Assembly (NCBI RefSeq): GCF_000264765.2 | Contig: NZ_CP006664.1 | Coordinates: 2,542,001 to 2,606,000 of the forward strand | Direction of reading: 5' to 3' | DNA from: Edwardsiella anguillarum ET080813 | GTDB lineage: Bacteria > Pseudomonadota > Gammaproteobacteria > Enterobacterales > Enterobacteriaceae | Length of the DNA: 64,000 bases | Shown here: piece by piece, positions 55,307 through 60,869 of the stretch | Position numbering within the stretch: position 1 is the first letter of the stretch | Layout: every line of letters begins with the position of its first letter | Notes under the pieces: generated by a model | What the model was told of the DNA's origin: nothing | Database searches by the model: none | Seen by the model: only the letters and a program-made list of their open reading frames with translations | Made by a program: the position numbers and the translations under genes

Positions 55307-56761
55307 CTAGACGCCGGCATGGGGCTGGCCGCTGTGCGCCGTGCTGCGCTGGCTGTAGGCGTGCAGCAGCAGGGGCAGCGCCACAAAGGCGGCGGTGCCG
55401 CCCAGCAGCAGCAGGACGTAGCGCGCCGGTGAGCCGACCGGGATCTGATCCGGTGGGATAAAGCTCAGCACAAAGGCCAGCAGGGCGGCGACCAGTCCGA
55501 CGCCGGCCACCAGCCAAACCCCGGCGTTGCCACCGGGGATCCGATAGGGACGCGGCGTATTGGGCTGGGTGTAGCGCAGGGTGATCACCGCCGCAAACAT
55601 CAGGATATACATCAGCAGATAGAGAATGGCAGCCAGCTGGCCCAGGATTTGAAACGCGGCCTGCACGGACGGCAGGCAGACCAGCATGATCGCCATCAGG
55701 GTAACGATGGCGCCCTGCAGCAGCAGAATATTGCGCTGTACGCCGCTGCGGTTGCTTTGCTGCAGCAGCGACGGCAGATACCCCTCTCGCCCCACTTCAA
55801 ACAGGCCGCGCGATGGTCCGGCGACGATCACCGTGACCTGTCCCAGCACCCCGACGGCGACCATCAGCGCGACCACGTGGCCGAGCCAGGGGACGCCGAG
55901 CGAGCTAAACAGCAGGTCATAGGCTACCAGCAGGCTCTGTACCAGGTTGATGCGATCGGCGGGGATCAGTGCGCTGATGGTCAGCGTACCTAGCACCAGT
56001 ACCACTACGGTCAGCAGCGCACTGATCCCGATAGCCAGCGGATAGTTACGCGATGCGTTGTTCAGCTCGCGTACGTGGACGGCGTTGATCTCCATCCCGG
56101 AGTAGAACAGAAAGACGCTGGCGGCCAGCACTAGGTTATGCAGATGGGTAATGTTGGGAAACAGCGCGTCCCACCCCAGAGTAAAGTGCACCGGGTTACC
56201 GCGGGCGATGTAGAGGATGCCGCAGCCGATCAGGATCGCCGCCGGGATCAGGGTCCCGATCATCCCGGCGATGGCGCTGATGCGTGACGCCGAGCGGACG
56301 CCGCGCAGGTTAATCCAGGTCGCCAGCCAATAGACGACCAGCACGACGCCCAGCGTATAGACGGCGTTGGAGGCCAGATGGGCGTCGGCGCCGGGGAGGG
56401 GCAGCGCATAGGCCAGCGCGACGGCGGTAAAGATCAGCATGGTGGGAAAGCAGATGGTGGTTGCCAGCCACTGTAGAAAGATGGCCAGCAGGCCATAGCG
56501 ATCGCCAAAGGCCTGGCCTATCCAGCGAAAAACCCCGCCTTTCTGTGGCCAGCCGGTGGCCAGCTCGGCGGCGCACAGGGAGACCGGCACCAGGAAACAC
56601 AGGGCGGCGAACAGATAGAGAAAGACGGCGGCCAGCCCGTACTCGGCCTCGGCCGCCAGTCCGCGCAGGCTGACCACGGTGGTAATGTTCATCATGGCGA
56701 AGGTGCCAGCCCCTAGGCTCACCGCCGCCAGCGCAGGCTTGCTGCTCGATTGCGAATTCAT
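55307..56761 (-). CDS. GadC-type amino acid antiporter, second copy
   Basis: This inner-membrane protein of 484 residues has about 12 hydrophobic helices and belongs to the APC superfamily, glutamate:GABA antiporter group. Segments such as VSLCAAELATGWPQKGGVFRW, FYSGMEINAVHVRELNNASR and FVLSFIPPDQIPVGSPARY match the group. It lacks the C-terminal plug that closes E. coli GadC at neutral pH. It is a paralogue of the upstream gene, with clear similarity from end to end. The ATG has only a weak ribosome site. Substrates are probably the amino acid and amine of the decarboxylase in the same operon, but are not known. Confidence 0.82.
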   Translation of the reverse strand: MNSQSSSKPALAAVSLGAGTFAMMNITTVVSLRGLAAEAEYGLAAVFLYLFAALCFLVPVSLCAAELATGWPQKGGVFRWIGQAFGDRYGLLAIFLQWLATTICFPTMLIFTAVALAYALPLPGADAHLASNAVYTLGVVLVVYWLATWINLRGVRSASRISAIAGMIGTLIPAAILIGCGILYIARGNPVHFTLGWDALFPNITHLHNLVLAASVFLFYSGMEINAVHVRELNNASRNYPLAIGISALLTVVVLVLGTLTISALIPADRINLVQSLLVAYDLLFSSLGVPWLGHVVALMVAVGVLGQVTVIVAGPSRGLFEVGREGYLPSLLQQSNRSGVQRNILLLQGAIVTLMAIMLVCLPSVQAAFQILGQLAAILYLLMYILMFAAVITLRYTQPNTPRPYRIPGGNAGVWLVAGVGLVAALLAFVLSFIPPDQIPVGSPARYVLLLLGGTAAFVALPLLLHAYSQRSTAHSGQPHAGV

Positions 56762-56781
56762 GATAAGGCACTCACGCTAAA

Positions 56782-56800
56782 GGGCCGCACGGGGCGGCCC
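56782..56800 (-). other. Intercistronic hairpin between the two antiporters
   Basis: GGGCCGC and GCGGCCC pair perfectly across five bases, followed on the minus strand by TTT. It may reduce expression of the second antiporter. Confidence 0.45.
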
Positions 56801-56811
56801 GGGTGTGGCGG

Positions 56812-58263
56812 TTACTGCCGATCGGCGTTGGCCGGTTGCCAAGAGGGCTTGCGGCAGGCGTAGACAATCAGCGGAATAACGAAGAAGCAGACCGATCCGA
56901 TCATCAGGATCAGGATATAGCTGCCCGGATTACCGACCGGGATCTGGGAGGGGGGAATGAAGCTGAGGACGAAAGCCACCAGGGAGCCGATAAAGCCGGC
57001 GCCGGCGATAACCCACATCCCCAGCGCACCGCCGGGGACCCGATACGGACGCGGCGTGTTGGGCTCTTTATAGCGTAGGTAAATTGCGGCGGCGAACATC
57101 ATGATGTACATCAGCAGATAGAGGATGGTCGCCAGCTGTCCCAGGATCTGATAGGCGGACTGCACGGAGGGCAGCACCACCAGCAGAACGGAGATGATGC
57201 TGACCACGATGCCCTGGAAGATCAGAATGTGCTGCTGCACGCCGTGGCGGTTGGTCTTCTGTAAAAAGGGCGGCAGATAGCCGGAGCGGCCGACCTGCAG
57301 CAGACCGGTGGACGGGCCCGCGACGATGGCGGTAATTTGCCCCAGCACCCCGAACGCCAGCATGGCGGCCAGAACCTCGCCCAGCCAGTGCAGGCCAAAG
57401 TGGTCGAACAGCGCGTTATAGGCGATGAGCAGGCTCTGCACCAGGTTGATTTGCTGTTTGGGGATCAGGGTGGCGATACACAGGGTGCCGAAGACAAAGA
57501 TAACGACGGTGGCGACGGCGGCGCTGATGATAGCCAGCGGATAGTTGTGCGACGGGTTGTCCACCTCGACCACGTGGACGGCGTTGATCTCCATCCCGCC
57601 GAAGAACAGGAAGATGCTGGAGGCCAGCACCAGATTGTTCAGGTTAGTCAGGTCGGGGAAGAAGTCGGCGGCGCGTGCCACAAAGTGCACCGGATTACCG
57701 TTGAGGACGTATACCAGCGTCAGCACCATCAGGATGATGGCCGGGATGATGGTCCCGATAAGCCCGCCCAGCGTCGCCAGCTTGGCGGAGGATTTAATTC
57801 CGCGCAGGGCGACCAGGGTGGCCAGCCAGTAGACCAGCAGCAGGATCACCACGGTATACAGCCGGTTGGCGGCCAGGTGGGAGTCGACGTCGGGGTGCGG
57901 CCCGATGAAGGCCAGCGACACGGCGGCGAAGATCAGCACCGTAGGAAACCAAATGGTGGTCGCCACCCACTGTAGATAGATGGCGACGAACCCCCAGCGG
58001 TGGCCAAAGGCTTCACCGATCCAGCGGAAGACGCCGCCTTTCTGCGGCCAGCCGGTCGCCAGCTCGGCGGCCACCAGTGAAACGGGAATTAAAAAGAAAA
58101 CGGCGGCAAAAAGATAATAGAAGGCGGATGTAATACCATACTCGGCTTCGGATGGCAGACCACGTAAACTGACCACCGTGGTGATATTCATGATTGCCAG
58201 CGTCATAATGCTGAGCTTGGCGGAAGGTTTCCCTTGCGTCGTGGAGTCCGATGTGGAGGCCAT
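56812..58263 (-). CDS. GadC-type amino acid antiporter, first copy
   Basis: The protein has 483 residues, about 12 membrane helices and the same APC/GGA family features: IMNITTVVSLRGLPSEAEYG, ELATGWPQKGGVFRWIGEAF and FFGGMEINAVHVVEVDNPSH. It ends ACRKPSWQPANADRQ, so the pH-gating C-plug of E. coli GadC is missing. AAGGAG precedes the ATG. It follows the decarboxylase gene after 169 bases and precedes its paralogue after 50. Exchange of substrate amino acid for the decarboxylated amine across the inner membrane is the likely role. Confidence 0.84.
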   Translation of the reverse strand: MASTSDSTTQGKPSAKLSIMTLAIMNITTVVSLRGLPSEAEYGITSAFYYLFAAVFFLIPVSLVAAELATGWPQKGGVFRWIGEAFGHRWGFVAIYLQWVATTIWFPTVLIFAAVSLAFIGPHPDVDSHLAANRLYTVVILLLVYWLATLVALRGIKSSAKLATLGGLIGTIIPAIILMVLTLVYVLNGNPVHFVARAADFFPDLTNLNNLVLASSIFLFFGGMEINAVHVVEVDNPSHNYPLAIISAAVATVVIFVFGTLCIATLIPKQQINLVQSLLIAYNALFDHFGLHWLGEVLAAMLAFGVLGQITAIVAGPSTGLLQVGRSGYLPPFLQKTNRHGVQQHILIFQGIVVSIISVLLVVLPSVQSAYQILGQLATILYLLMYIMMFAAAIYLRYKEPNTPRPYRVPGGALGMWVIAGAGFIGSLVAFVLSFIPPSQIPVGNPGSYILILMIGSVCFFVIPLIVYACRKPSWQPANADRQ

Positions 58264-58333
58264 AAATGCTCCTTGATAAAACCTGATTTATGCGTGTTTC
58301 ATGGGTCAGCGATGCGAAAATAAAGAGGCATAT

Positions 58334-58353
58334 AGGCCGGGATAACCCGGCCT
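58334..58353 (-). other. Intercistronic hairpin after the decarboxylase gene
   Basis: AGGCCGGG and CCCGGCCT pair perfectly over a four-base loop. On the minus strand a T-rich patch begins about ten bases later. It could be a leaky terminator or an mRNA 3' stabiliser. Confidence 0.5.
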
Positions 58354-58432
58354 GTGCATATATTGATGGCGGTGTCCTGCGGCGGGTTATACGCATCGAT
58401 ATGATGCCCCGTCGCGGAACAGTCGCGTGGCA

Positions 58433-60145
58433 TTATTTAATGCCAAGCACCTCATTACGTGCGGCAGTGACGCAATCTACAACGTGCTGCATAATTTCAT
58501 GGGTTAAATGAACATTCATCGGATACACTTTCAGGGCAAATACGGTTGCATCCGGGTCGTGCGCGTCGCGGTTATATTCAGTCACCCGGAAGCCGGTGCT
58601 GAAGCTCATGTACGGAGTATATTGTCCGTTGATTTTCTTACCGCTACGGAACCACTCGTAAAGTTTATTACCGACGTCCATGGTTAGTTTGTTATTGGCG
58701 ATCAGCTGAGATTTGTAGGACGGATCGCTGAGCTCATGCTGATATTGCTGATGAGCCATAACGCCTTCCGGGTAAATACGGAACAGCGTTACCAGGCTGT
58801 AGTCATCGGGGTTGACGCAGACGGTGGCGGCATTTTCATGCAGCAGGTTACGCAGGTAATACTGGTTCTCCAGAATCCCGCCCATGATGGCCTGGAAGCC
58901 CTCATAGCCGAAGTATTTCATCGTGGCCCAGCCAGCCAGCGCGCCGGTCGCCGCACGGGAGACCTCCAGCGTGTAGTCCAGCGGGTTGTACGGGGAGCGC
59001 GGCTGCAGATAGGCGGAGCCCGGACGTTTCAGGATGCTTTCAAACTCCTCTGCGTTGCGGTAGGTGAAGCAGCTGCTGGCGTAGGGGGTAAAGCCGGCTT
59101 TATGGAAGTCAAAGCCGATAGCATCAGCGTACTTCATGTCCTGCAGCGCGCGGCAGTTGGCCTCGATGAACGGCAGCAGCTCTTCGGTGAACTGCAGCGG
59201 GTTCTTGGCAAAATCATATTTCTTAAAGGCCAGCCATGACCAGCTGGTGACGGCATCGCAGTACAGCAGCGCCTTGCCGTAGGGGGCGGCGTTGGGGTAT
59301 TGATCCAGCAGCTTACGTACCCCGCCCACCGGGTCAAAGGCGTTAGCGTCGGTGGTCCCCATGGTACATACCACGGAGGCAACCGGGATTTTCTTGGCCT
59401 GCAGCGATTTCAGCACCGCCTCCAGGTCGTTCAGATCCATCGCGTTGGTGTCAGGATCGGTCTTGATGCGGATGATGTTGTCCATCCCCAGGCCCATCCA
59501 GTCGGTGCTGTTCAGCATCGTGTAGTGTGCCTGCTGAGAGCACAGCACCTTGGCATCGGTACGGACGCCGCTGTGGCGGGAGTTCGGCAATACGCGGGTC
59601 AGCGCATATTTAACATGGTAGGTCCAGCAGCCTGAGCCGCCGTAGGTGTACAGACAGCCGGCGTGTTTGGCGTCCCAGCCGACCATGTTGGCCAGCATCC
59701 CGGCGCTTTCCAGCTCGGCGCGGTGAACGTTCCAGGAGTATTCCCCTTCCAAAATATTCGGGGAGAAAATTTCTGACATCACGGCCGCGATAATAGAGGC
59801 GGTATTCGCCTGCGGGATCACGTTACACATGGTCAGCGGATGGCCCCAGTTAGGCAGCCCTTCAAACAGAGCGCTGGTATCAGCAATGACCTGGTCGCTG
59901 CTACTCATTTTATCGGCCATTTCAATGTCTTTGACTTTATCGAAATCGATAGTCAAAGCCGGATTCTGTCCCAAATAGGCGGGGCCGCCGTCGGCAGGAC
60001 GTAGCTTATTCAGCTGTTCAATGGCTTTGGCTATCGATTTGGTTAAAGGATCATGATCGTCACTGAATGCAGACGGAAATGCAGAGCGCATCTCTTCGCG
60101 GTATTTTGTCCACTGTTTGTCATTATTACAGTTACACGTTTTCAT
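58433..60145 (-). CDS. PLP-dependent group II amino acid decarboxylase, substrate unknown
   Basis: The protein has 570 residues from the ATG at 60145 (AAGGA nine bases upstream); a longer frame to 60220 is less likely. The PLP lysine is K349 in GFDFHKAGFTPYASS, the ring-stacking histidine is H207 in SQQAHYTMLNS and the pyridine-binding aspartate is D297 in LYCDAVTSWSW. It is longer than E. coli GadB (466 residues) and does not look like it at the ends. The adjacent GadC-type antiporters suggest glutamate or another acidic or aromatic amino acid. An acid-resistance or pH role is inferred. It heads a three-gene minus-strand operon behind a long A+T-rich promoter region. Confidence 0.8.
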   Translation of the reverse strand: MKTCNCNNDKQWTKYREEMRSAFPSAFSDDHDPLTKSIAKAIEQLNKLRPADGGPAYLGQNPALTIDFDKVKDIEMADKMSSSDQVIADTSALFEGLPNWGHPLTMCNVIPQANTASIIAAVMSEIFSPNILEGEYSWNVHRAELESAGMLANMVGWDAKHAGCLYTYGGSGCWTYHVKYALTRVLPNSRHSGVRTDAKVLCSQQAHYTMLNSTDWMGLGMDNIIRIKTDPDTNAMDLNDLEAVLKSLQAKKIPVASVVCTMGTTDANAFDPVGGVRKLLDQYPNAAPYGKALLYCDAVTSWSWLAFKKYDFAKNPLQFTEELLPFIEANCRALQDMKYADAIGFDFHKAGFTPYASSCFTYRNAEEFESILKRPGSAYLQPRSPYNPLDYTLEVSRAATGALAGWATMKYFGYEGFQAIMGGILENQYYLRNLLHENAATVCVNPDDYSLVTLFRIYPEGVMAHQQYQHELSDPSYKSQLIANNKLTMDVGNKLYEWFRSGKKINGQYTPYMSFSTGFRVTEYNRDAHDPDATVFALKVYPMNVHLTHEIMQHVVDCVTAARNEVLGIK

Positions 60146-60829
60146 TTTTAATGTCCTTGATATGGTCTCTATCACGTGAGTGATAAGCCGTAGACCCATT
60201 TTTCGCTGGTATGACATCACAGCGCAAAGGAAAACGACTCAGGGAATGTCACTAAAGCCTATATTGCATGTATTAACTCTGTTTTCTGGAAACAAAAATC
60301 CCAGCTGTATTAAAACAGCGTGTTGTACTGTGTTGAGCGCGTTGATTAAAATAAATCATGCTTGGCTCAGCTAACGTTTTTAATTCTAGCACCGCAGCTG
60401 CAGTCATCATGAAATAAAGAGTGTAAACACGACAAAAAGCCGATCGCGATGTAAAGTGGGCCAATCCTTTTATAATACAAATTGAACTATATTGTGAGTG
60501 TACTATTACGTGATGGTCATCCCAATTGTGGCGCAATATCATGATTATGCAAATCCTGTGCCTGAATATTTAAACGCTTTTGGTTGCTAGTTTCGTATGA
60601 AACAGAGTTGGTGATATATGAAACATTATGCAATGGTTGTTTTTAATTATTATGAATGATAATTGTGCTGAGGATATTTTGCGTATATTTAATATCACCC
60701 TGCTGTAATTAAAACGTGCTTAGAGTTTAACGGCGTCATTATTTATGAACGGACGGGAACGGTTTTCCCGGCAGGCCATGCCCCACCGCCTCCTCACGAT
60801 AGCGCGACGGTTGAATCGACTCAATTGTG
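60146..60829. promoter_or_regulatory. A+T-rich divergent spacer upstream of the decarboxylase operon
   Basis: This stretch is clearly richer in A+T than the surrounding genes and holds no convincing gene. Short frames on both strands (for example 60180-60374 and 60273-60542) lack ribosome sites or recognisable sequence. It must contain the promoter of the decarboxylase operon. Its length and composition suggest binding of H-NS-type silencers, as at other acid-inducible loci. Confidence 0.45.
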
Positions 60830-60845
60830 CTGTATACTTATACAG
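60830..60845 (+). promoter_or_regulatory. LexA (SOS) box of dinB
   Basis: CTGT-N8-ACAG with an alternating A/T core (CTGTATACTTATACAG) lies 25 to 40 bases before the dinB start. SOS induction by LexA cleavage is expected. Confidence 0.9.
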
Positions 60846-60869
60846 TGCAACTGAGGCGTGGGCAGGCTG

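Follow-up and report, generated by a model that had tools for sequence, protein, structure and literature searches.

Results

A decarboxylase gene and two antiporter genes in Edwardsiella anguillarum

We analyzed a stretch of 64,000 nucleotides from Edwardsiella anguillarum ET080813 (contig NZ_CP006664.1, positions 2,542,001 to 2,606,000; hereafter the window), in which a gene for a pyridoxal 5'-phosphate (PLP)-dependent decarboxylase is followed by genes for two GadC-class antiporters, here labelled AP1 and AP2. A first-pass annotation of the window had proposed that this enzyme is not a canonical GadA/GadB, and that its two antiporters, lacking the C-terminal plug of GadC, point to a second substrate or to activity at a different pH. 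The three genes are intact and located as in that annotation; they and the codons discussed below are as follows.

58433-60145, minus strand: PLP decarboxylase gene, 570 amino acids from ATG; group II (PF00282), not GadB-type
56812-58263, minus strand: AP1, GadC-class antiporter, 483 amino acids; 730 bits to TIGR03813; without C-terminal plug
55307-56761, minus strand: AP2, GadC-class antiporter paralogous to AP1, 484 amino acids; 646 bits to TIGR03813; without C-terminal plug
59099-59101, minus strand: predicted PLP lysine codon, Lys349 (DFHK), role by homology
57325-57327, minus strand: codon of AP1 Ile313, aligned with GadC Trp308 and AdiC Trp293
55826-55828, minus strand: codon of AP2 Ile312, aligned with GadC Trp308

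All three genes are under purifying selection within Edwardsiella and show no sign of decay: comparison with two other Edwardsiella genomes gave ratios of nonsynonymous to synonymous substitution (dN/dS) of 0.04 for the enzyme, 0.05–0.06 for AP1 and 0.07–0.10 for AP2. The three-gene order, which the first-pass annotation suggested surveying in other genomes, recurs in Edwardsiella, Plesiomonas and Photobacterium, and this recurrence in three genera, taken together with the dN/dS values of 0.04–0.10, shows that the arrangement is more than chance. The decarboxylase and AP1 genes are separated by 169 bp and the AP1 and AP2 genes by 50 bp, and the three are probably co-transcribed.

The enzyme represents an unnamed group II decarboxylase family

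The decarboxylase scored 58 bits over two stretches of PF00282, above the gathering score of 27, and gave no match at E ≤ 0.001 to TIGR01788 (cut-off 380.4), nor did blastp at E < 1e-5 align it with the canonical GadB encoded elsewhere in the same genome. It reaches no NCBIfam cut-off, the best being PanP (66.2 of 606.1 bits), with 59.9 of 905.3 for TyrDC, 59.3 of 900 for diaminobutyrate decarboxylase and 19 of 305 for the PLP histidine decarboxylase profile. Indeed, searches of Pfam, NCBIfam and PDB sequences with the 570-residue enzyme returned no close characterized decarboxylase, a match that the first-pass annotation had named, along with an inactive antiporter, as a finding that would overturn its proposal; the dN/dS values gave no sign of the latter. 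The enzyme is thus best classed as a member of an unnamed group II PLP-decarboxylase family distinct from the GadB type, in agreement with the earlier view.

Its predicted catalytic residues are intact, Lys349, His207 and Asp297 being invariant in a 14-row alignment; by homology, we take them to be the PLP lysine, the ring-stacking histidine and the pyridine-nitrogen aspartate, respectively. An argument for an acidic substrate was considered and dropped: Asn108 and Asn130 match, without gaps, substrate-side residues of GAD67, yet they are also conserved in more distant relatives and hence do not tell the substrate. In the structure model (mean predicted local distance difference test, pLDDT, of 71.7) the substrate segment, residues 95–136, lies below 50. 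Fold comparison placed DfoJ (lysine), GADL1, GAD65, CSAD, diaminobutyrate decarboxylase and GAD67 in tied top rows at Z 30–31, followed by a bacterial Trp decarboxylase (Z 29.9) and human AADC (about 28), with identities of 13–19% to the solved group II members. The ranking does not separate substrates, and the fold comparison supports group II membership and nothing narrower.

The antiporters share an altered middle-gate residue

AP1 and AP2 are 60% identical and thus paralogous, as had been proposed. Against TIGR03813 (cut-off 650), AP1 passes and AP2 falls just short, and the same split is seen in Plesiomonas (720/644) and Photobacterium (700/624); the Escherichia albertii counterpart of AP1 passes as well. 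Scores of AP1 against the TyrP and AdiC profiles were 335 of 630 and 36 of 574. In the antiporter tree, the AP2 proteins of Edwardsiella, Plesiomonas and Photobacterium are monophyletic (support 100/98), which makes AP1 and AP2 an old paralogue pair. We rejected the possibility of AP2 being a dead copy, given this three-genus clade and its dN/dS of 0.07–0.10. Beside the decarboxylase-linked antiporters stands a clade of GadB/GlsA-linked ones (support 100/99). In the flanks examined of the five comparison antiporters, glsA is present in all five and gadB in four (L095 being without).

One change concerns the middle gate. At the position of GadC Trp308 and AdiC Trp293, all 11 linked antiporters examined have Ile, whereas 35 of 36 further homologue loci have Trp (L092–L123, L125, L081, L082 and L088; many are near-identical, and weaker homologues lie outside the count), the only deviation being L117, a 25% relative with a gapped alignment. 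According to PMC4970712, citing earlier work, Trp308Ala abolishes Glu transport by GadC, and non-aromatic replacements of Trp293 abolish transport by AdiC. All 11 linked antiporters also carry Gln in place of GadC Glu304.

We also compared AP1 with AP2, using one row per genus. Fixed differences occur at 12 of 474 columns, and four of the 17 substrate-shell columns are among them (p = 0.0005), or three of 19 with an alternative mapping of transmembrane helix 3 (TM3) (p = 0.010); adding gate residues gives 5/20 (p = 5e-5) or 4/22 (p = 0.0014), while seven to nine of the twelve fall outside the shell. The alignment to AdiC was the same with MAFFT and phmmer; both mappings are given because the aromatic residue that GadC has at AdiC Tyr93 (PMC4970712) implies a one-residue shift of TM3. 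Between linked and GadB/GlsA-linked antiporters, 22 of 474 columns discriminate, including 4/17 of the shell (p = 0.006) or 3/19 with the shifted map (p = 0.05), and 5/20 (p = 0.0013) or 3/22 (p = 0.075) with gate residues. An earlier version with our own contact list gave 4/17 (p = 0.006) and, within one residue, 5/44 (p = 0.04); the 4.5 Å list of PMC6199258, with its "Ser2" read as Ser26, gave 4/16 (p = 0.004), and 2/9 for strictly fixed columns (p = 0.03). The counts behind these p values are small and the rows related, and the differences were already known when the test was run. The L041 antiporter gene is frameshifted, and its TM1 letters, being out of frame, are to be disregarded. Overall, the fixed differences between AP1 and AP2 are over-represented where the substrate is presumed to bind, alike in three genera.

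The first-pass annotation had leaned on the missing plug. Both antiporters do lack it: 8 residues follow the last conserved helix in AP1 and 10 in AP2, compared with 40 in E. coli GadC, 52 in the GadC of the same genome and 34–40 in the four other GadB/GlsA-linked proteins. Other linked gammaproteobacterial copies have 3–10, the linked Polymorphobacter copy (L042) keeps 30, and short tails are also present in GadB-linked relatives (L122, 10; L123, 17; L106, 19). Moreover, E. coli GadC without its plug is reported to work over a pH range displaced by only about 0.5 unit; from pH 7 upward it carries Gln (pH 7–8) but not Glu (PMC3663535). Plug loss is therefore neither unique to the decarboxylase-AP1-AP2 set nor enough for glutamate transport at neutral pH, which weakens it as an argument for activity at a different pH. 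The proposed second substrate gains likelihood on other grounds, namely Ile in place of Trp308 in every linked copy examined (11 of 11) and the pocket-concentrated differences between AP1 and AP2. The earlier interpretation is thus partly supported; its direction is right, but for reasons other than the tail.

A canonical gad locus in the same genome

Elsewhere in this genome (C1:1041227-1046592; L044 5228-10593) lies a canonical locus with gadB, a long-tailed gadC, a glutaminase gene and a further APC transporter gene. Its GadB scores 652 bits against TIGR01788, and its GadC has 529 amino acids. The first-pass annotation had left open whether a virulence-linked gadB of Edwardsiella is the window gene, and this could be answered in part. 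The gadB primers given in PMC12427314 have 0 mismatches at the canonical gene and 5–6 at the window, so that this marker is the canonical gene and not the gene of the 570-residue decarboxylase; the primers given in PMC12857957 have at least 6 mismatches at both loci compared and match neither. "gadBC" is reported to be RpoS-induced in E. piscicida (PMC6136808).

GadB was also present in all four gene-carrying Edwardsiella genomes tested. A further Edwardsiella genome (G001) gave a match to neither the decarboxylase nor GadB; as a candidate empty site it has its flanks on different contigs. Photobacterium aquae has the three-gene set and no GadB above the TIGR01788 cut-off, and we accordingly rejected the idea that the set is a mere helper of GadB.

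Distribution and gene context

Relatives 57–99% identical to the window enzyme occur over several phyla, in Edwardsiella, Plesiomonas, Photobacterium, Kosakonia, an Escherichia albertii plasmid, sphingomonads, Acidobacteria and Bacteroidota. A pattern-based contig scan found 14 (59–99% identity; Edwardsiella, Plesiomonas, Photobacterium, Kosakonia, Bacteroidota and Acidobacteria). A plasmid collection gave 23 matching records at 1e-20, with at least six close copies among the 20 matches listed: one on an Escherichia albertii plasmid typed as conjugative (81%), two from Plesiomonas (75%), one from Sphingomonas (61%) and two from Polymorphobacter (57%). Counting the genome itself, 18 of 295 genomes in the order sample matched at E ≤ 1e-20, 16 of them with 28–31% identity except for one further copy in G340, itself close (76%); in the class sample there were 2 of 274 at the same threshold, the second one 34% identical. 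The Bacteroidota class sample yielded 8 of 345 at E ≤ 1e-60, six at 63–67% (four already in the contig-scan set) and two at 39%. In the decarboxylase tree, the family forms a tight clade of 20 rows far from the 39% relatives. Megablast of 5,426 E. coli genomes, which detects DNA of about 85% identity or more, found no near match. The patchy distribution together with the plasmid copies suggests horizontal transfer. Literature leads on branched-chain and histidine decarboxylases yielded nothing on this family, and no title or abstract beginning among the literature matches listed named the three-gene set.

Gene context was compared over 23 family loci, some of which share a species or a genome. 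Two antiporter genes follow in seven (Edwardsiella, Plesiomonas, Photobacterium) and one in three (Escherichia albertii, Sphingomonas with broken frames, and Polymorphobacter); in L026 the contig ends inside the first antiporter gene. In each of the six proteobacterial groups that have linked antiporters (Edwardsiella, Plesiomonas, Photobacterium, Escherichia albertii, Polymorphobacter, Sphingomonas), the decarboxylase gene comes first and the antiporter gene follows.

The start of a catalase gene overlaps the end of the decarboxylase gene in two Bacteroidota (L036 4911-6365; L146 4246-5709), and a catalase gene lies upstream of it on two Plesiomonas plasmids (L040 5821-7299), a neighborhood that raises the possibility of a tie to oxidative stress. 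Genes for S51 peptidases, of the cyanophycinase type, lie near the solitary Bacteroidota decarboxylase gene at three loci (L029 10852-11703, L031 4317-5186, L032 1304-2164). On the Sphingomonas plasmid (L041 6001-9262) the decarboxylase and antiporter genes are both in pieces in different frames, and on the Escherichia albertii plasmid a gene for a KUP-family potassium transporter (L039 11430-13283) comes after the decarboxylase gene and single antiporter gene.

In the window, the three genes are flanked on one side by genes for a DNA polymerase IV-like protein and an M20 peptidase, on the other by an ApbE gene; no glutaminase gene was found among the flanking genes examined. One further feature stands out.

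60146-60857, no strand: 712 bp of AT-rich intergenic DNA on the upstream side of the decarboxylase gene, 39.7% GC compared with 60.7% for the window

Long AT-rich upstream stretches are often met at silenced stress genes, and this one may have a regulatory role.

A proposed second decarboxylation-antiport module

We lean towards the reading that the three genes form a parallel decarboxylation-antiport module beside GadB-GadC-GlsA, that its substrate has changed and is probably not glutamate, and that its two antiporters are non-redundant. In such a module the cytosolic enzyme would decarboxylate an amino acid and thereby use up a proton, and the antiporters would take up the amino acid from outside while releasing the amine from within; the whole set would act as a virtual proton pump or as a source of proton motive force. 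The antiporters are close kin of GadC, but their substrate site is changed by the absence of the middle-gate Trp, so that free glutamate, handled as by GadC, is probably not what they carry. AP1 and AP2, being old and apparently non-redundant paralogues with different pockets, would probably supply the single enzyme either with two related substrates or, in two different conditions, with the same one. A fuller version is tentative, and we would sooner doubt it than accept it: a near-neutral-pH module working on one or two non-glutamate amino acids, in which two pocket-differentiated antiporters serve one enzyme and gate without the Trp reported to be essential in AdiC and GadC, and which has spread, partly by plasmids, among enteric, aquatic and soil bacteria.

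Some of the data weigh against the proposed module. Identity to the GadC of the same genome is 58% for AP1 and 52% for AP2, and both, like the other linked antiporters, retain GadC Glu218, Tyr378 and Tyr382. Support for a single clade of the linked antiporters is moderate (86/85), in a tree with 10 of their rows and without L041. Shell enrichment between linked and GadB/GlsA-linked antiporters depends on the mapping chosen, and both structure models are poor in the parts that count, the substrate segment of the decarboxylase and AP1 (pLDDT 59.8). Lastly, 12 of the 23 family loci (Kosakonia, ten Bacteroidota including G912 and G1018, and one Acidobacteria) have no GadC-like gene in the stretch examined, so coupling of enzyme and antiporter is not universal.

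Much of this would fit an ordinary second Glu (or Gln)/γ-aminobutyrate (GABA) system, with a non-orthologous glutamate decarboxylase, another gating solution in place of the Trp and a slightly higher pH range through plug loss. The closeness of AP1 to GadC, the TIGR03813 scores of AP1 and its Plesiomonas, Photobacterium and Escherichia albertii counterparts, and the three retained residues all agree with such a system, as do the GAD65, GADL1 and CSAD structures within the tied top folds and the reported movement of Gln at pH 7–8 by plug-less GadC (PMC3663535). However, the residue whose replacement by Ala reportedly kills Glu transport (PMC4970712) is gone in every linked copy examined, the operon has no neighboring glutaminase gene in the window, the genome already has gadB-gadC-glsA, and the TIGR03813 name is based on similarity for these proteins. 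We thus regard this explanation as unlikely, though a serious contender. To an enzyme working mainly in stress metabolism without any antiporter, with the proteobacterial antiporters as add-ons of minor or separate function, we give little credence. The 12 antiporter-free loci speak for it, as does a search of nine whole Bacteroidota and Acidobacteria carrier genomes (Kosakonia, G912 and G1018 being outside the search), which found no GadC homologue above 28% identity; so do the catalase gene overlap in L036 and L146 and the S51 peptidase genes at three loci. It is opposed by the constant decarboxylase-then-antiporter order in the six proteobacterial groups, and by the retention of two paralogues over three genera, with purifying selection within Edwardsiella.

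If the parallel module is real, some genes annotated as "putative glutamine/gamma-aminobutyrate antiporter GadC" conceal a second system whose substrate differs, and a gadC label would lead to wrong predictions of acid-stress or GABA traits in Edwardsiella, Plesiomonas and related plasmids. There would also be natural antiporters close to GadC that have lost a residue regarded as indispensable to gating.

Comparison with known systems

The closest known system is GadB-GadC-GlsA (AR2, AR2_Q), which likewise combines a decarboxylase with a GadC-class antiporter, AP1 even passing TIGR03813. The window differs from it in an enzyme outside TIGR01788, the lack of an adjoining glutaminase gene, two antiporters instead of one, the missing plug and Ile in place of Trp308. 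With the group II PLP decarboxylases (animal GAD, CSAD, GADL1 and AADC, bacterial PanP and TyrDC) the enzyme shares PF00282, the PLP lysine and the fold (Z of about 31 to DfoJ, GADL1 and GAD65); however, it is only 13–19% identical to the solved members, stays far below the NCBIfam cut-offs and belongs to a tight family of its own, whose nearest relatives found are 39% identical. AdiC/AdiA and TyrP/TyrDC also pair one decarboxylase with an APC antiporter, but AP1 lies far below the TyrP and AdiC cut-offs, and E. coli AdiC and TyrP-like relatives (e.g., L097) keep the middle-gate Trp where AP1 and AP2 have Ile. PMC8465708 reports that some Proteobacteria have antiporter genes both upstream and downstream of a PLP-type hdcA, and that in some phyla antiporters annotated as gadC lie next to a pyruvoyl hdcA, so that two antiporters per enzyme and a "gadC" with another decarboxylase both have precedents. 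Unlike in those histidine decarboxylase clusters, both antiporters here are of the GadC class and stand in tandem downstream of an enzyme far from the PLP histidine decarboxylase profile.

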